64,000 nt of DNA, from the NCBI GenBank assembly GCA_947503715.1, contig CANNER010000001.1, forward strand, positions 186,001 through 250,000, given 5' to 3'. Positions 39,334 through 45,291 of the stretch are shown piece by piece (positions within the stretch are counted from its first letter, which is position 1; every line of letters begins with the position of its first letter). A program made the translations under genes and the position numbers. The notes beneath the pieces are model-generated. The model did not search any database and was not told the origin of the DNA. It worked only from the letters and a program-made list of their open reading frames with translations. The DNA is from an uncultured Caulobacterales bacterium. Lineage in GTDB: Bacteria > Pseudomonadota > Alphaproteobacteria > Caulobacterales > Maricaulaceae.

Positions 39334-40280
39334 CTCCCGAAGCTGTCATGGATTGGGCGGTCCAGACGGGGTTCGTGGTCAGCCTTCTGATCGTCGGAAT
39401 TCTGATTATCCGACGCCCCTTCGCGCGGGCTTTCGGTGCGGGCGCGACTTATGCGCTTTGGTTGCTTCCACTTATCCGACTGGTCCTGCCGGTCATTGCT
39501 ATACCACAAAGCTGGCTGCCCGGACGATTTAGACCTCAACCCGAAGCGACGGGCCCAATGGCGGATGTCACGGCAAGATACCAAACGCCTTCACCGGATA
39601 CGTTCCCTGTTGCGGACCCCAGTTTACCATTAGATGAATTTATAGCGCCTACCCAACAGGGCTTTGATTGGACACCAATGATTATTGGGATTTGGTCGGG
39701 GGTAGCGGTGTCATGGTTTGCGTTCCAACTTTTTCGCCAGCGCGCTTTTTTGTTGCAAATGCGTCGGACGAGTGATTTTGCGAATGAAACTTTGTTGGCT
39801 GAAGGCCGCGTTGCTGGGGATATTACAGGTTTAAAAGCTGTTCCGATATTGCGTGTCTCACATCAAAATATCGGTCCATTTGTGACGGGTGTTGTGAGTC
39901 CAACGGTAATCTTACCCTCAGACTTTATGCAGGATTATACGCCGGCACAGCGCCACTATGCGCTTGTCCATGAGTTCGCCCACATCAAACGCAAAGACCT
40001 CTGGGCCGCTTTTGCTGCCTTAGTTTTCCGCGCAATTAATTGGTTCAATCCGCTGGTTCACTACGCCGTGCATAAGATGCGTGTTGATCAGGAAGCGGCA
40101 TGTGATGCCTTTGTCATTGCGAAAACAGGCCAGTCCGGCACGAACAAATTGGACTACGCAAAAACTCTGCTGCAGGCGGCTAAAACAACAGGATCGTCAG
40201 CAGCCGGCGCACATCTCGCACTCTCTCTCGTAGAGACAGATGAGGCTGAAATTGAAGAAAAGGAGACTTCAAATGATTAA
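39330..40280 (+). CDS. M56 family (BlaR1-type) membrane metallopeptidase
   Basis: A 316-residue inner-membrane zinc peptidase that in the BlaR1 system cleaves the partner repressor. N-terminal helices (10-30, 38-58), a periplasmic loop, another helix (about 112-132), then the zinc motif H214-E-F-A-H218 and a second acidic site DQEAACDAFVIA. It stops right after YAKTLLQAAKTT...HLALSLVETDE, where BlaR1 relatives continue into a further membrane helix and a periplasmic sensor domain. That missing part is encoded in the next gene, which overlaps it by 8 bp. No beta-lactam binding domain is present, so the signal is not a beta-lactam. Confidence 0.88.
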   Translation: MTPEAVMDWAVQTGFVVSLLIVGILIIRRPFARAFGAGATYALWLLPLIRLVLPVIAIPQSWLPGRFRPQPEATGPMADVTARYQTPSPDTFPVADPSLPLDEFIAPTQQGFDWTPMIIGIWSGVAVSWFAFQLFRQRAFLLQMRRTSDFANETLLAEGRVAGDITGLKAVPILRVSHQNIGPFVTGVVSPTVILPSDFMQDYTPAQRHYALVHEFAHIKRKDLWAAFAALVFRAINWFNPLVHYAVHKMRVDQEAACDAFVIAKTGQSGTNKLDYAKTLLQAAKTTGSSAAGAHLALSLVETDEAEIEEKETSND

Positions 40281-41325
40281 ACTACTCGATCTAGGGGTGT
40301 CTGATCCCCTGACGCTTGGTATGGCCAGTCCTTTGGCCGACCGGATAGAAATTCTCGCGCGGAAACGTCCCGTGACCAAACTCTCACGCACGCTTGCCGG
40401 TTCGGTTCTATTGTGTGTTGCCGCGTTGAGTGCGCCTCTGACCATCGCAGGTGATCATCCGCATGATGATGACAAAACGAAATCTGTTATCATGTTCTCG
40501 GACGGTGCCATCTGGTCCAATGATGGCGAGACGAAACTCCGCAGTGGGGGCGCTTATGAAATCGTCACGGAAGACGGCGAGTTGAAAGCCTATCAGATAA
40601 GCGATGGCGGTGATACGCGTGAGGAGATCAATGTGTATCTCACGGATGATGGCGTCTATGAACTGACTCTCCAAAACGGCGAAGTCGTGACCTTTGATAA
40701 ACCTGATTTATCAGGGCTGGAAGGTCTGAAGGGACTCGAAGGGCTAAAGGGTCTAGAAGGCCTCAAGGGACTTGAGGGTCTCAAAGGCCTGCGCGGACTT
40801 GAGGGCTTAAGCGGCTTATCCAAACTTGAAGGCTTGAGCGCCCTAAGTGAGCTGAGCGAGTTGGGCGAAATGGATTTTCCGCAAATGCTGGAAGACGGTG
40901 ATATAAAGGTCATCGTAAATGGTGAAACCCACGCCTGGTTTGACAGAGATGAAGCGAGCCAAGAGAGCTTGAGAGCTAAAATTCAATCCATTTTTAAAGG
41001 TGAGGGCGAGGGAGCAAGTGTCCGCATCTTGACGAATAGAGATGATAAATCTGCCAAGCGTTTCACCTTCAGCACAGAATCTGAGTTTACGGACTCGGAC
41101 GGTCAGCGTCTGCCGGATACGGTTATTCGTTTCGGAGATGGAGGCATCAAAGTCGAACGATCACTTGATCTGGCAGAACGTCAACTCAAGCTCACCGAAC
41201 AGCAATTAGAGCGCATGGCTGAAAATAGTGAAGCCTCACGTGAACTCAAACAGGCGTTACGTGAGTTGGAAAAAGCTAAAAAGTCACTCGAGAAAGCCCG
41301 CCTCAAGATTGAAGGGGAAGACTGA
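40273..41325 (+). CDS. Membrane-anchored periplasmic protein with LEGLKG repeats (split BlaR1-like C-terminal part)
   Basis: A 350-residue protein. Its start (MASPLADRIEILARKRPVTKLSR, then helix LAGSVLLCVAALSAPLTIA) matches the part that follows the zinc site in BlaR1-type proteins, so it appears to be the detached C-terminal portion of the upstream gene. The outside part has DDDKTKS and beta-like segments, four LEGLKG hexapeptides plus degenerate copies at about 148-195, and a long C-terminal coiled coil (AERQLKLTEQQLERM... LRELEKAKKSLEKARLK). The repeats use varied codons, so they are not a recent DNA expansion. AGGAG lies seven bases before the ATG at 40273. It overlaps the M56 gene by 8 bp. 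Confidence 0.75.
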   Translation: MIKLLDLGVSDPLTLGMASPLADRIEILARKRPVTKLSRTLAGSVLLCVAALSAPLTIAGDHPHDDDKTKSVIMFSDGAIWSNDGETKLRSGGAYEIVTEDGELKAYQISDGGDTREEINVYLTDDGVYELTLQNGEVVTFDKPDLSGLEGLKGLEGLKGLEGLKGLEGLKGLRGLEGLSGLSKLEGLSALSELSELGEMDFPQMLEDGDIKVIVNGETHAWFDRDEASQESLRAKIQSIFKGEGEGASVRILTNRDDKSAKRFTFSTESEFTDSDGQRLPDTVIRFGDGGIKVERSLDLAERQLKLTEQQLERMAENSEASRELKQALRELEKAKKSLEKARLKIEGED

Positions 41326-42945: not shown

Positions 42946-45291
42946 ATGACCGATAAAATATTGGACGAATACAAGCCGCTCGCATTTTATAAAAAGCACG
43001 GAACCGAGAAACAGACGGGTTTTTCAAAATTTGAAGTAGAGGGCGAATATTACTTCTGTCGCTATTCCGACGGAAATATTTGCATGCTCAGTCAGGCTTA
43101 TAAGAGTATTGCGGGACGAGATAACGGCATTGTTTCCATACGGACGAATGAGAAAATTAAGGGGCGTTACAAGTTTACAGACCGTGACGGCGGAAAGCAC
43201 GGGTTCTCACTTCGAGCCGGAAATCATCAAGAAATTGCGATTAGTCCGGAATATAAAACACTGGCCGCTGCAGAACATGTCGTCGGTCGACTAACAGGAA
43301 AAGTGAAAGCTAAGAAAACGGCTGCGAAAAAAGCGACGGCTAAACCAGCGGCGAAAACAGCGACGCCCAAGAAAACCGCACCTAAAAAACCTGTTCCCAA
43401 AGTCAAACCTGCAAAAGCAGCCGCTACAGCAGCTTTCACATCTACAGACGGCCGTATTGAGAATTACAAACCTCTCGCGTTTTACGAAAAACATGGCGGG
43501 ATGGGCGACGGCTTTAATCAATTCGACGAAGACGGTGCCTATTATTTCAACTATGCGCAGGACGGCGACGTTGTTCTGATTTCAGAGAGTTACACGTCTG
43601 CGCGTGGCCGTGATAATGGCGTCGAGTCGGTAAAGAAAAACATGCCTCTGGCTGAACGCTACAAGCATCACACGCATAAGAACGGCAAATATTATTTCGA
43701 TATCAATGCCGCTAATCATCAGGAAATTGCGACGTCACGCTGGTATGATAGCGAAGGTGCGGCGCAGAATGGTGCGAAACGGTTGCGCGGTGAAATGCCG
43801 TTAAAGTCAGCGCTGACGGCGGGTGCTGTGGGCGCGGCAGGTTTGGCCGCTGGGGCTGCAGTGGCTGCAAGAGCCGCGAATGTTGAGCAGGATTACAAAC
43901 CGCTCGCATTCTACCAAAGACAAACCGAAGGCCGCGAGCATGGTATTGAGACATTTACCGGTGACGATGGTAAACATTATTTCGCCTATTTCGAGAATGA
44001 TAAAATTGCCCTGATCTCCGAAGGCTATCCAACGAAAGCCGCGCGTGATACGGGTGTGGCGTCCGTTGAAAAAAATATCGGCATTGAGAAACGCTATGAG
44101 TATCGGGGTCCACTGAAAAACGGTAAATATGATTATCGTCTCAAGGCCGGCAATCACAAGGAAATCGCGCGGTCAGTTTGGTATGGCTCTGCCGCTGCTG
44201 CGGCAGCTGGCGCGGCTTATCTCATGGGCACACGCAAACGGGCTGCGGCTGTTCCGGTTGTTGCGCCGAAACCCTCTGCGCCAATTGCGAAAGTCGCTGC
44301 GGCCCCCTTGGCGGCGGCGGCCGTCGCCGCGTCAGCGGCTGCGAGACCGGAACCCGTTGCGGCTCCGGTTGCCGCGAAGCCAGAACCTGTTGCAGTGGCC
44401 GCAGCGGCTGAACCCGCAGCGGCGGCCTATGATGGTGGTGGCGGTATTTGGGGTTGGTTGAAGTGGTTGCTTCTGGCGCTCATCGCGCTGCTCGCCATGT
44501 TCTTCCTGTTCAAAAATTGTGTGGGCGGTGAGACAACAGCCAAAGTCGCACCTGTAGCCACCGAAAGCGGCGCAGCGGCAGTTACTCCCATGGTCAGCTG
44601 TTGGAACGGGACGGAAGCCGCAACGCTCTCGGCCTGTCCGGCCAAGATCACGTGTTGGAACGGGGATGAAGTGACCGCGCAATCGGCTTGTCCAGTGGAA
44701 CCGGCCCCAGCGGCGGTTGAACCTGAACCCGTGCCGACTTTCACCTGTTGGGATGATAGTGAAGTCGAAGACCTCGCTAATTGTCCGCCAGTGCCAGAGG
44801 TCGAGTCTGCTGTGGTTGAAACACCGAGCGCGACGCCAACACGCAATAATTCTGTGACGTCATCTGCAGGTTTCCTCTCCGGTGCAGGTGCGACGGCGGG
44901 TATCTTCCTTGCGGGCGATACACCCGTGACGGTCCGTCGTCTGGGGACATTCCCGGAATTTGGTGACAGTCGCGGCCTGAGTGGTTCGGCCTTCTATGAC
45001 AAGTTAAATGCGCGCTACGCGACGAACAGCTTTGATCGGAACTATCTCGACTATCTCGCAAAAGAACTGGGTTATACGGGTTGGTCAGAGGTGACAGCGG
45101 CAGACTTTACAGAGACGTCCATTGCCAATGGCACATCAGGCGTCCTCGGCTTTGGCGAATATCACGGCTATCAATATGTGACCTATGATATGGAGGATCT
45201 GTCCCATCTCGAGGCGTTTCAATTCGCGTCCCGCAATGGAAAGCAGGTTTATTTCATGAAACGTTGCGGGAATTATTTCTTCCCGACTTAG
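42946..45291 (+). CDS. Membrane protein with three YegP (DUF1508) modules and a Cys-repeat C-terminal region
   Basis: A 781-residue protein of unusual build. Three modules of about 100 residues (about 8-115, 170-285, 317-430) each contain a pair of DUF1508/YegP-like motifs such as YKPLAFYKKHG, DNGI/VxSIRTN and AGNHQEIA.S. Between them are a Lys/Ala/Pro-rich linker (118-165) and Ala-rich segments. A single membrane helix (about 503-523, LKWLLLALIALLAMFFLF) is followed by three C-W-N/D-G/D-x-E/D...CP repeats (about 550-612) and a C-terminal domain (658-781). DUF1508 has no known function. It is flanked by DegP and a terminator; orientation suggests the YegP part is cytoplasmic. Confidence 0.8.
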   Translation: MTDKILDEYKPLAFYKKHGTEKQTGFSKFEVEGEYYFCRYSDGNICMLSQAYKSIAGRDNGIVSIRTNEKIKGRYKFTDRDGGKHGFSLRAGNHQEIAISPEYKTLAAAEHVVGRLTGKVKAKKTAAKKATAKPAAKTATPKKTAPKKPVPKVKPAKAAATAAFTSTDGRIENYKPLAFYEKHGGMGDGFNQFDEDGAYYFNYAQDGDVVLISESYTSARGRDNGVESVKKNMPLAERYKHHTHKNGKYYFDINAANHQEIATSRWYDSEGAAQNGAKRLRGEMPLKSALTAGAVGAAGLAAGAAVAARAANVEQDYKPLAFYQRQTEGREHGIETFTGDDGKHYFAYFENDKIALISEGYPTKAARDTGVASVEKNIGIEKRYEYRGPLKNGKYDYRLKAGNHKEIARSVWYGSAAAAAAGAAYLMGTRKRAAAVPVVAPKPSAPIAKVAAAPLAAAAVAASAAARPEPVAAPVAAKPEPVAVAAAAEPAAAAYDGGGGIWGWLKWLLLALIALLAMFFLFKNCVGGETTAKVAPVATESGAAAVTPMVSCWNGTEAATLSACPAKITCWNGDEVTAQSACPVEPAPAAVEPEPVPTFTCWDDSEVEDLANCPPVPEVESAVVETPSATPTRNNSVTSSAGFLSGAGATAGIFLAGDTPVTVRRLGTFPEFGDSRGLSGSAFYDKLNARYATNSFDRNYLDYLAKELGYTGWSEVTAADFTETSIANGTSGVLGFGEYHGYQYVTYDMEDLSHLEAFQFASRNGKQVYFMKRCGNYFFPT

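Follow-up and report, generated by a model that had tools for sequence, protein, structure and literature searches.

The OmpA_C domain (PF00691) serves as the C-terminal anchor of OmpA/OprF, MotB, Pal and PorE, where it follows a barrel with its spacer, a PD40 part with a CRD, or a membrane helix, the last being the arrangement in MotB. PorE of the type IX secretion system is described as having the order WD40-CRD-OmpA_C, with a structure solved together with a peptidoglycan fragment (PMC7192894). The YegP/DUF1508 family (UPF0339), exemplified by E. coli YegP (2k8e) and SO_3888 (2k49), is usually met as small standalone proteins. In 57 cases YegP homologs are reported to sit after a capK-capS pair that responds to DNA damage (PMC13373217). 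No functional study was seen in the titles and abstract openings of the papers listed for YegP/UPF0339. Here we analyze a protein from an uncultured Caulobacterales bacterium, encoded in a 64,000-nucleotide stretch of DNA (the window), in which an array of DUF1508 modules is joined through a membrane helix to an unnamed C-terminal domain (CTD) that takes the place OmpA_C holds elsewhere.

Architecture of the DUF1508-CTD protein

The features of the gene are collected in Table 1. The original prediction had read three double DUF1508/YegP modules, a membrane helix after them, three Cys-W repeats and a C-terminal domain in this one reading frame, and had proposed an HMM search and structure prediction; all four parts were borne out. 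PF07411 (DUF1508) matched in six stretches, equal to three double modules, with E=3.8e-46 and 155.2 bits against a cut-off of 22. The model of module 2, the one modelled, adopts the YegP fold (pLDDT 94.3), matching 2k49 (Foldseek E=5e-8, prob 1.00, TM 0.73) and 2k8e (E=2.6e-7). By sequence and model, the double modules share the family and fold of these proteins. The small standalone build usual for YegP is absent from the 781-residue window protein, which carries the modules, helix, spacer and CTD in one chain; among the matches listed, standalone DUF1508 reading frames of the same bacterial family mostly measure ~90-185 aa (one 255, one 55).

Table 1 Features of the DUF1508-CTD gene, in positions of the window.
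Feature	Position	Strand	Description and basis
Whole gene	42946..45291	+	ATG start, 781 aa, 0 internal stops; DUF1508(x3 double)-TM-CW(x3)-CTD
DUF1508 double module 1	42964..43278	+	aa 7-111, cytoplasmic (predicted); Pfam
Lys/Ala/Pro-rich, histone-H1-like linker	43279..43458	+	aa 112-171; sequence and composition
DUF1508 double module 2	43459..43770	+	aa 172-275; Pfam, model, Foldseek
Gly/Ala-rich linker	43771..43887	+	aa 276-314; no membrane crossing predicted by insertion-scale scan
DUF1508 double module 3	43888..44208	+	aa 315-421; Pfam
Ala/Pro-rich linker preceding the membrane helix	44209..44454	+	aa 422-503; sequence
Single membrane helix	44455..44511	+	aa ~504-522, WLKWLLLALIALLAMFFLF; hydrophobicity
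CW repeat 1	44599..44640	+	CWNG...ACP, C-x11-C
CW repeat 2	44653..44694	+	C-x11-C-P
CW repeat 3	44746..44787	+	C-x11-C-P
C-terminal domain (CTD), unnamed family	44899..45288	+	conservation in relatives, model

The linkers had been described as Lys/Ala/Pro-rich and histone H1-like throughout; by eye, this holds for the first linker only, the second being rich in Gly and Ala and the third in Ala and Pro. Pooled, the linkers of the window protein contain 12% K, 34% A, 10% P and 4% D+E. Both the Lys/Ala/Pro richness and the net basic charge of histone H1-like tails are thus present, a likeness that we take to be one of composition. Unlike in histone H1, the basic stretches sit between folded modules of a membrane protein, and a Pfam search of the window protein returned no H1 globular domain. 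When linkers before the helix were pooled per protein, the net charge was positive in 39 of 47 relatives, among them 17 of 18 from Alphaproteobacteria, with a maximum of +81 (L059). Six of the 29 Bacteroidota sets are net negative (L150 -19, L167 -15, L102 -6, L104 -4, L154 -2, L153 -1) and one is zero. The CW repeats, which begin at residues 552, 570 and 601, vary more than the rest of the protein: at least two CW-type motifs occur in 10 of 18 alphaproteobacterial DUF1508-CTD proteins, including that of the window, and none in the other eight.

The architecture recurs beyond the own genome. A search of 40 relatives returned long matches over both the DUF1508 and the C-terminal parts in genomes that include G002, G004, G007, G008, G010, G012, G016 and G018, and the architecture is therefore not a product of chance or assembly. 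Orthologs with the same order and common gene neighbors in congeners likewise rule out chance or artefact. The protein is a member of a family found in two phyla rather than a one-off chimera. A promoter and terminator scan gave nothing useful.

Membrane topology

The helix scores -2.42 on a membrane-insertion scale, on which no second crossing was predicted in the Gly/Ala linker (best 19-mer among those listed, +2.86). Between modules and CTD, the peak hydrophobic stretch reaches a Kyte-Doolittle mean of at least 1.6 in 46 of 47 relatives. At a strict threshold on the insertion scale, exactly one helix lies in the expected place in 28 of the 47; seven of the remaining 19 have a stretch just above the threshold, and in the other 12 no stretch scores +1.0 or lower. 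In the window protein the linkers before the helix sum to +23 and the stretch after it to -13. Twelve of the 18 alphaproteobacterial relatives have a post-helix stretch of net negative charge. In the full set of 47, negative stretches number 22 and positive ones 15, and the charge rule is therefore clear in Alphaproteobacteria alone. The modules begin at residue 7, near the extreme N-terminus, and are followed by one helix with the basic side predicted inside, a topology like that of MotB. A cytoplasmic N-terminus and a periplasmic CTD have good support, and this is very likely an inner-membrane-spanning protein, its modules inside and its CTD outside.

A C-terminal domain in the place of OmpA_C

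The CTD has two helices and, after them, a portion made mostly of strands, with an invariant MK-x-CGN close to the end, and its model is confident (pLDDT 88). No significant match to it was found in Pfam, NCBIfam, PHROGs, PDB sequences or the viral fold library. A Foldseek search with the model gave no fold match (best E=0.13, TM 0.22, rmsd >12 Å). The search for related loci retained 80 of 97 matches. S41, H106, K138, C140 and N142 (A2 numbering) are invariant in the 80 rows of the CTD alignment, and C140 is retained even where the other two CTD cysteines are missing. The four rows of 80 that have lost the first cysteine have all lost the last as well, and this joint loss was counted for a periplasmic place of the domain. 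Two diverged relatives (L164, L165) each consist of two CTDs and, by eye, appear exported; their build, together with the position of the CTD behind outer-membrane barrels, was also counted for that place. A literature search on Saprospiraceae, OmpA and peptidoglycan binding returned no paper on the CTD among the matches listed.

Two classes of carrier end in the CTD, the DUF1508-array/membrane-helix proteins and outer-membrane proteins. The latter comprise barrel-CW, barrel-TSP3 and PorE-like PD40-CRD proteins; their tree labels barrel, giant and TSP3 follow protein length and the number of repeats, the PD40 label of L161 and L110 was given by eye, and Pfam checks covered representatives. The own genome encodes one barrel-CW protein that ends in the CTD and a paralog with a 57% identical barrel that ends in OmpA_C; at L037 the CTD barrel protein and its OmpA_C paralog are tandem neighbors. 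Saprospiraceae proteins of the barrel-TSP3 and PD40 types end in the CTD, and OmpA_C ends 11 of 11 paralogs extracted from the same genomes (24 loci matched, some being the CTD proteins themselves). Altogether, the CTD stands in the OmpA_C position of carriers with OmpA_C paralogs in the own genome, G070, G071, G135, G058, G061 and G064. The WD40 and CRD parts of PorE are matched by PD40 and CarboxypepD_reg-like parts in L105, L108 and L111, where CarboxypepD_reg passes the Pfam cut-off in L108 only. Unlike PorE, these three proteins end in the CTD instead of OmpA_C, and the TPR part was not found in them.

The CTD is a family different from OmpA_C. The PF00691 profile gave no match to the window CTD, and the 12 families that at least one of the 80 CTDs hit with E ≤10 do not include it; hhalign of CTD against OmpA_C returned a probability of 0.1% (E 0.61), and the residues TD..G....N..LS..R, invariant in 13 OmpA_C rows, are all missing from the CTD. 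A divergent OmpA_C is ruled out by the missing profile match and the hhalign probability. A type IX sorting signal is ruled out too, for Alphaproteobacteria have the CTD as well, and it stands behind barrels and in tandem. On sequence comparison, the CTD occupies the place of OmpA_C in three host proteins with no detectable homology to it.

Distribution and phylogeny

The CTD is found mainly in two groups, Robiginitomaculaceae-type Alphaproteobacteria and the Saprospiraceae of the Bacteroidota, loci from L150 on being assigned by hand to Bacteroidota after the searches that yielded their genomes. DUF1508-array/membrane-helix/CTD proteins are present in both phyla. Hellea balneolensis DSM 19091 has the DUF1508 kind and outer-membrane kinds, and Litorimonas cladophorae KCTC 23968 has outer-membrane kinds. 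Among 16 good CTD-bearing genomes of the source's family, nine hold outer-membrane and DUF1508 kinds and seven the outer-membrane kind alone, as judged mostly by open-frame length. Quick trees were built without bootstrap. In the CTD tree, from which five fragments <250 aa, L067 (too short) and the two-CTD relatives L164 and L165 were left out, the two phyla lie on opposite sides of one branch (97%). In the module tree, which has few columns for its rows, DUF1508 modules of the two phyla are interleaved, and seven standalone alphaproteobacterial DUF1508 proteins form a separate clade (96% SH-aLRT). The split of CTDs by phylum, while the modules interleave, suggests that the DUF1508-CTD gene probably crossed between phyla. 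A binning artefact of metagenome-assembled genomes is an unlikely cause of the two-phylum spread, given the 97% branch, the Hellea balneolensis genome and the near-complete genomes.

Discussion

We propose, with a probability of about one half, that the protein is an inner-membrane tether resembling MotB, which would connect a cytoplasmic DUF1508 array to the cell wall or some other shared partner in the envelope. In the manner of MotB and PorE, one end would grip the wall and the other would offer a partner in the cytoplasm the array, strung on flexible basic linkers, with the CW repeats as a disulfide-stiffened spacer. The CTD would do the job of OmpA_C through a different fold, a step with moderate support, and would hold its carrier to peptidoglycan or another envelope partner reachable from inner and outer membrane. 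Since the CTD shares neither homology nor invariant residues with OmpA_C, the swap is evidence on position, not on ligand; OmpA_C paralogs persist beside the CTD ones, and an equal job is therefore not required. Also counting against the tether are the relatives with no clear helix, the limits of the charge rule, and the two-CTD proteins, in which no membrane anchor is visible. No fixed partner accompanies the CTD in the 16 genomes, which makes a general component of the envelope its likely ligand. The original prediction of a link between a cytoplasmic ligand and the periplasm is supported in its membrane span, here very likely of the inner membrane, with modules predicted inside and CTD outside; its periplasmic end narrows to the wall or another partner common to both membranes, because the CTD is shared with outer-membrane proteins.

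Other readings of the CTD must be weighed against this tether. It could act in the periplasm as an enzyme or through a reactive thiol, with Cys140, His106, Ser41, Lys138 and Asn142 as the active site and different carriers taking it to different places in the envelope. The invariance of these residues and the survival of C140 fit that reading, which we nevertheless consider unlikely: several papain-like peptidases and toxins appear in the Foldseek list, but sliding clamps score equally weakly, none of these matches is significant and no catalytic family was matched by profile. For the same reason a papain- or NlpC-like pseudo-enzyme was rejected; the motif GDSHGL bears what we take to be a loose resemblance to the NlpC/P60 motif. 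Quite unlikely, in our estimate, is a homotypic bridge in which inner- and outer-membrane CTDs bind each other in the periplasm and join the membranes directly, as SUN-KASH bridges do in the nuclear envelope. The identical CTD family sits on proteins of both membranes, all nine genomes with the DUF1508 kind also have the outer-membrane kind, and the invariant Cys140 could form an intermolecular disulfide. Pairing nonetheless appears non-obligate, because in seven of the 16 genomes the outer-membrane kind stands by itself and some Saprospiraceae, e.g. G063 and G066 (completeness not given), show just one CTD gene, which is of the DUF1508 kind; the congener G013 (100% complete) has two outer-membrane CTD proteins and no DUF1508 match.

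A stress sensor, in which the CTD reads the envelope state and the array relays the signal to a cytoplasmic protein, likewise seems quite unlikely. It draws on the YegP homologs behind capK-capS and on the neighborhood, where nine of the 17 loci from Alphaproteobacteria contain a DegP-like HtrA; BlaI lies close by in four and BlaR in three. This neighborhood is kept only in close relatives: eight of the 17 loci have no HtrA, and none of 12 Bacteroidota loci, some of them short, has any of the 11 window neighbors tried. HtrA also adjoins CrcB without the DUF1508-CTD gene in four of seven congeners missing that gene, and it therefore looks like a separate cassette.

For the proposed tether, the cytoplasmic partner would most readily be nucleic acid, otherwise a protein, an assignment we offer tentatively. 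In L060, HHH_5 domains (E=8.7e-25) stand where the others have DUF1508 and are followed by the same TM-CTD part, and these, with the basic linkers of the alphaproteobacterial proteins, plausibly favor a nucleic-acid ligand. The acidic linker sets in Bacteroidota weaken this ligand and with it a general DNA-binding role. A wider and rather unlikely version is a nucleoid-to-cell-wall tether, in which chromosomal DNA would be held by the array, whether of DUF1508 or helix-hairpin-helix type, together with its histone-like linkers, and peptidoglycan by the CTD as a wall anchor of unrecognized fold. Gene transfer would have carried this CTD into two phyla, and it would independently have replaced OmpA_C on outer-membrane proteins and would form one interchangeable coupling for chromosome, wall and outer membrane. 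Literature searches returned no paper combining all the terms for such a tether and nothing useful on DUF4332/HHH_5, and we know of no bacterial protein that fastens DNA to the wall.

If the tether reading is true, OmpA_C would not be the sole exchanged wall-anchoring module, for an unnamed CTD replaces it in three host proteins, and a domain with no detected relative would have moved between Bacteroidota and Alphaproteobacteria. The YegP/DUF1508 fold would gain a physical setting, as arrays at the inner membrane, and a protein fastening DNA to the wall, if it proves to be one, would to our knowledge be new to bacterial cell biology.

Domain organization of the window protein

The high-scoring match to DUF1508 in Pfam (E=3.8e-46) covers six stretches of the window protein, and a home-made double-module profile resolved three double modules at residues 7-111, 172-275, and 315-421. 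The protein matched the YegP-fold chains 2k49 and 2k8e by phmmer. The structure of module 2, predicted with a pLDDT of 94 from an alignment in which the three window modules were joined by 84 of the 91 others that an identity filter had left, matched 2k49 (E=5e-8, TM 0.73) and likewise 2k8e by Foldseek. The profile search and structure prediction proposed with the original prediction agree with its assignment of the modules to DUF1508. Its description of the protein also holds overall, except that the histone-like character given to the linkers is true of the first linker only.

Features in and beside the window protein gene.
Feature	Position	Strand	Remark
ORF of window protein	42946-45291	+	encodes 781 aa
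Stretch around DUF1508 module 2 that matches 7b5h chain AD	43441-43794		
ORF with repeats	40240-41325		behind BlaI/BlaR-like genes

One membrane helix lies at residues ~504-522 and scores -2.42 on an insertion scale. On this scale, the best listed stretch of the Gly/Ala linker that separates modules 2 and 3 scores +2.86, so no second membrane crossing is predicted. The CW repeats start at residues 552, 570, and 601 and are all of the form C-x11-C-P; the CW region alone matched no Pfam family. Within its own genome, the window gene is the only DUF1508 gene found (five matches, all inside it).

DUF1508 modules are joined to the C-terminal domain (CTD) in 47 proteins, 18 alphaproteobacterial and 29 from Bacteroidota, within a real modular family that is uncharacterised as far as our searches show. 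The best stretch between the modules and the CTD has a Kyte-Doolittle mean of at least 1.6 in 46 of the 47. A single helix in the right place passes the strict threshold of the insertion scale in 28; seven of the remaining 19 fall just above this threshold, and 12 have no stretch at or below +1.0. Taken together, the linkers ahead of the helix carry a net positive charge in 39/47, comprising 17 of the 18 alphaproteobacterial proteins (up to +81; the exception is L047, -1) and 22 of the 29 Bacteroidota proteins, with L151 at 0 and six negative sets (L150 -19, L167 -15, L102 -6, L104 -4, L154 -2, and L153 -1). The stretch after the helix is net negative in 22 and positive in 15 of all 47 proteins (12 and 5 of the 18 alphaproteobacterial ones). 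CW-type motifs, at least two each, occur in 10 of these 18 and in none of the other eight.

Fold and conserved cysteines of the CTD

The CTD is the key to understanding the window protein. No Pfam, NCBIfam, or PHROG family matched the window CTD, the best match of any of 80 CTDs against Pfam had E=0.024, and the CTD profile gave only meaningless matches (E about 1) against PDB sequences. A model built from 80 sequences (mean pLDDT 88, with at least 90 in 118 of the 147 residues; pTM 0.83) begins with two long helices, after which come six strands and a short helix. Foldseek searches with this model returned no significant match in the PDB (best E=0.13) or BFVD (best E=0.26).

Three cysteine columns were identified, of which the middle one (MK-x-CGN) is occupied in 80/80 rows, the first in 76, and the last in 72. 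The four rows without the first cysteine (the window protein, L038, L042, and L060) are also without the last, and this joint loss suggests that the two form a disulphide, which in turn points to an oxidising compartment. Three of the four rows are sisters (98%), so the joint loss represents about two events, and the window protein itself has lost the pair. Four more rows lack the last cysteine and keep the first; three of them carry a cysteine two residues further on, and L111 does not.

Carriers and occurrence of the CTD

The 93 rows of the CTD tree comprise 47 DUF1508, 25 barrel-CW, 8 giant (>1400 aa), 7 barrel-TSP3, 5 PD40, and 1 helix-hairpin-helix proteins, the DUF1508 label being given by profile match and the others by length, repeat rules, or eye, with a Pfam check of representatives. 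Pfam found OMP_b-brl in L031 and L037, TSP_3 and DUF6089 in L083, PD40 in L105, L108, and L111 (CarboxypepD_reg above cut-off in L108 only), and HHH_5 in L060 (E=8.7e-25). In L060, a long Ala/Lys/Glu stretch and helix-hairpin-helix repeats replace the DUF1508 array ahead of the TM-CTD part. Giants such as L032, L034, L048, L049, L063, and L070 are up to ~2000 aa long with a terminal CTD; DUF11 and SdrD_B were seen in L034, the one scanned with Pfam, and an outer-membrane barrel part is suspected by eye. L164 and L165, from the Saprospiraceae-family search, consist of two diverged CTD copies and appear exported by eye. L149 (540 aa, Bacteroidota search) has a distant CTD-like domain near its N-terminus (E=3e-17, small search) and, by eye, a barrel-like end.

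The CTD occurs in 37 of 137 genomes and 8 of 19 genera of the window's family, the match in genome G1065 being a 16-residue end piece only. A draw of 385 genomes across the class gave a single one with it, the window's own. G063 is the genome of a Saprospiraceae locus; in its family, 23/199 genomes have the CTD, and the 395 drawn from its phylum gave two, G063 itself and one distant match. Named loci belong to Hellea, Litorimonas, Algimonas, Robiginitomaculum, and unnamed Caulobacterales on the alphaproteobacterial side, and to Saprospiraceae, Chitinophagales, Lewinella, and one unnamed Bacteroidetes MAG on the other. Algimonas porphyrae, which comes from a red alga, is described as prosthecate and as belonging to the Robiginitomaculaceae (PMC11556061).

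The CTD occupies the position of OmpA_C

The window's own genome encodes two CTD proteins, the window protein and a barrel-CW protein, and the latter has a paralogue ending in OmpA_C (PF00691), whose barrel is 57% identical and whose CW repeats are of the same type. At L037, the two kinds stand in tandem, the OmpA_C one first (PF00691 at E=4.7e-15). Furthermore, 11/11 paralogues of barrel-TSP3 and PD40 carriers, extracted in six Bacteroidota genomes from 24 returned loci (some being CTD proteins themselves), end in OmpA_C, as called by alignment (T-D-x-x-G, N, L-S, R, and N-R-R invariant in 13/13 rows). The search covered barrel-CW, barrel-TSP3, and PD40 carriers. Homology between the CTD and OmpA_C was not detectable by hhalign (probability 0.1%). 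Thus, in three different host proteins, the place of a wall-binding domain is taken by an unrelated one. For PorE (TPR-WD40-CRD-OmpA_C), a structure with a peptidoglycan stem-peptide fragment is reported (PMC7192894). The swap between CTD and OmpA_C is evidence for an envelope-anchoring role of the CTD, with peptidoglycan as a candidate ligand.

The kinds of CTD protein were compared in 16 CTD-bearing genomes of the family (at least 90% complete, at most 5% contaminated), as judged by open-frame length and DUF1508 search with some genes cut by contig ends. Nine have the outer-membrane and DUF1508 kinds, seven the outer-membrane kind alone, and none the DUF1508 kind alone; some Bacteroidota genomes of unstated completeness (e.g., G063 and G066) show just one CTD gene, which belongs to the DUF1508 kind. 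The CTD therefore seems able to do without a second CTD protein on the other membrane, and a common ligand fits the distribution better than such a partner.

History and gene neighbourhood

A quick tree of the CTDs separates all 51 alphaproteobacterial rows from the others by one branch (SH-aLRT 97). Under midpoint rooting, the Bacteroidota rows nearest to them are the DUF1508 proteins L076, L099, L103, and L115, and at least 11 changes are required to explain the architecture labels. When 94 DUF1508 modules are placed in a tree, the two phyla interleave, for example in a clade of 12 with six per phylum (100%), and well-supported branches force at least two changes; seven standalone alphaproteobacterial DUF1508 proteins form a separate clade (96%). 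The simplest reading is that the multi-module gene would have been transferred between the phyla, with separate fusions to outer-membrane proteins in each. The direction was likely from Bacteroidota; the root of the tree is arbitrary.

Within the genus, the window gene lies between HtrA and CrcB, and CrcB was found in 15/18 genomes. Of seven genomes that lack the window gene, four have HtrA directly beside CrcB, one has HtrA farther off, and two have no HtrA within the 1.5 kb seen; at L202, tblastn missed a window-type gene that another search shows in that genome. Of 17 further alphaproteobacterial loci that carry the window-type gene, nine have HtrA and eight CrcB, and the window neighbours were found at none of 12 Bacteroidota loci. 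The nearby repeat ORF, which contains a run of GLEGLKGLEGLKGL repeats, is kept beside HtrA in L044 and L072.

Possible ligands and role of the window protein

We infer the compartment of each end of the window protein, and nucleic acid is a candidate cytoplasmic ligand of the DUF1508 array. The H1-like linkers of the alphaproteobacterial proteins are consistent with this, as is L060, a Chitinophagales MAG protein with helix-hairpin-helix repeats in the DUF1508 slot (five by eye, and found by Pfam too); six Bacteroidota proteins with acidic linkers argue against it, as does the fact that L060 is the one helix-hairpin-helix relative among the rows seen. Two published observations also speak for nucleic acid: YegP homologues follow capK-capS in 57 cases (PMC13373217), and HVO_2922 is listed among up-regulated genes alongside repair and recombination genes (PMC12175516). 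The literature searched, which scarcely mentions DUF1508, yielded no direct test of its nucleic-acid binding. A protein ligand would be favoured if the likeness of the module 2 model to part of 7b5h chain AD (Foldseek probability 1.00, TM 0.60, rmsd 2.5, E=0.007) is real, since it would give the YegP fold a protein-contact role. This 1109-aa chain belongs to the base plate of the Anabaena thylakoid-anchored contractile injection system, and a sequence search with the module did not list it even at E up to 10. The paper on this base plate reports additional domains in Cis11 and Cis12 there, and its main text does not use the word YegP (PMC8894136).

Collectively, the window protein is best read as an inner-membrane tether with a CTD analogous but not homologous to OmpA_C, whose CTD end would bind the wall or envelope and whose DUF1508 end may bind nucleic acid.
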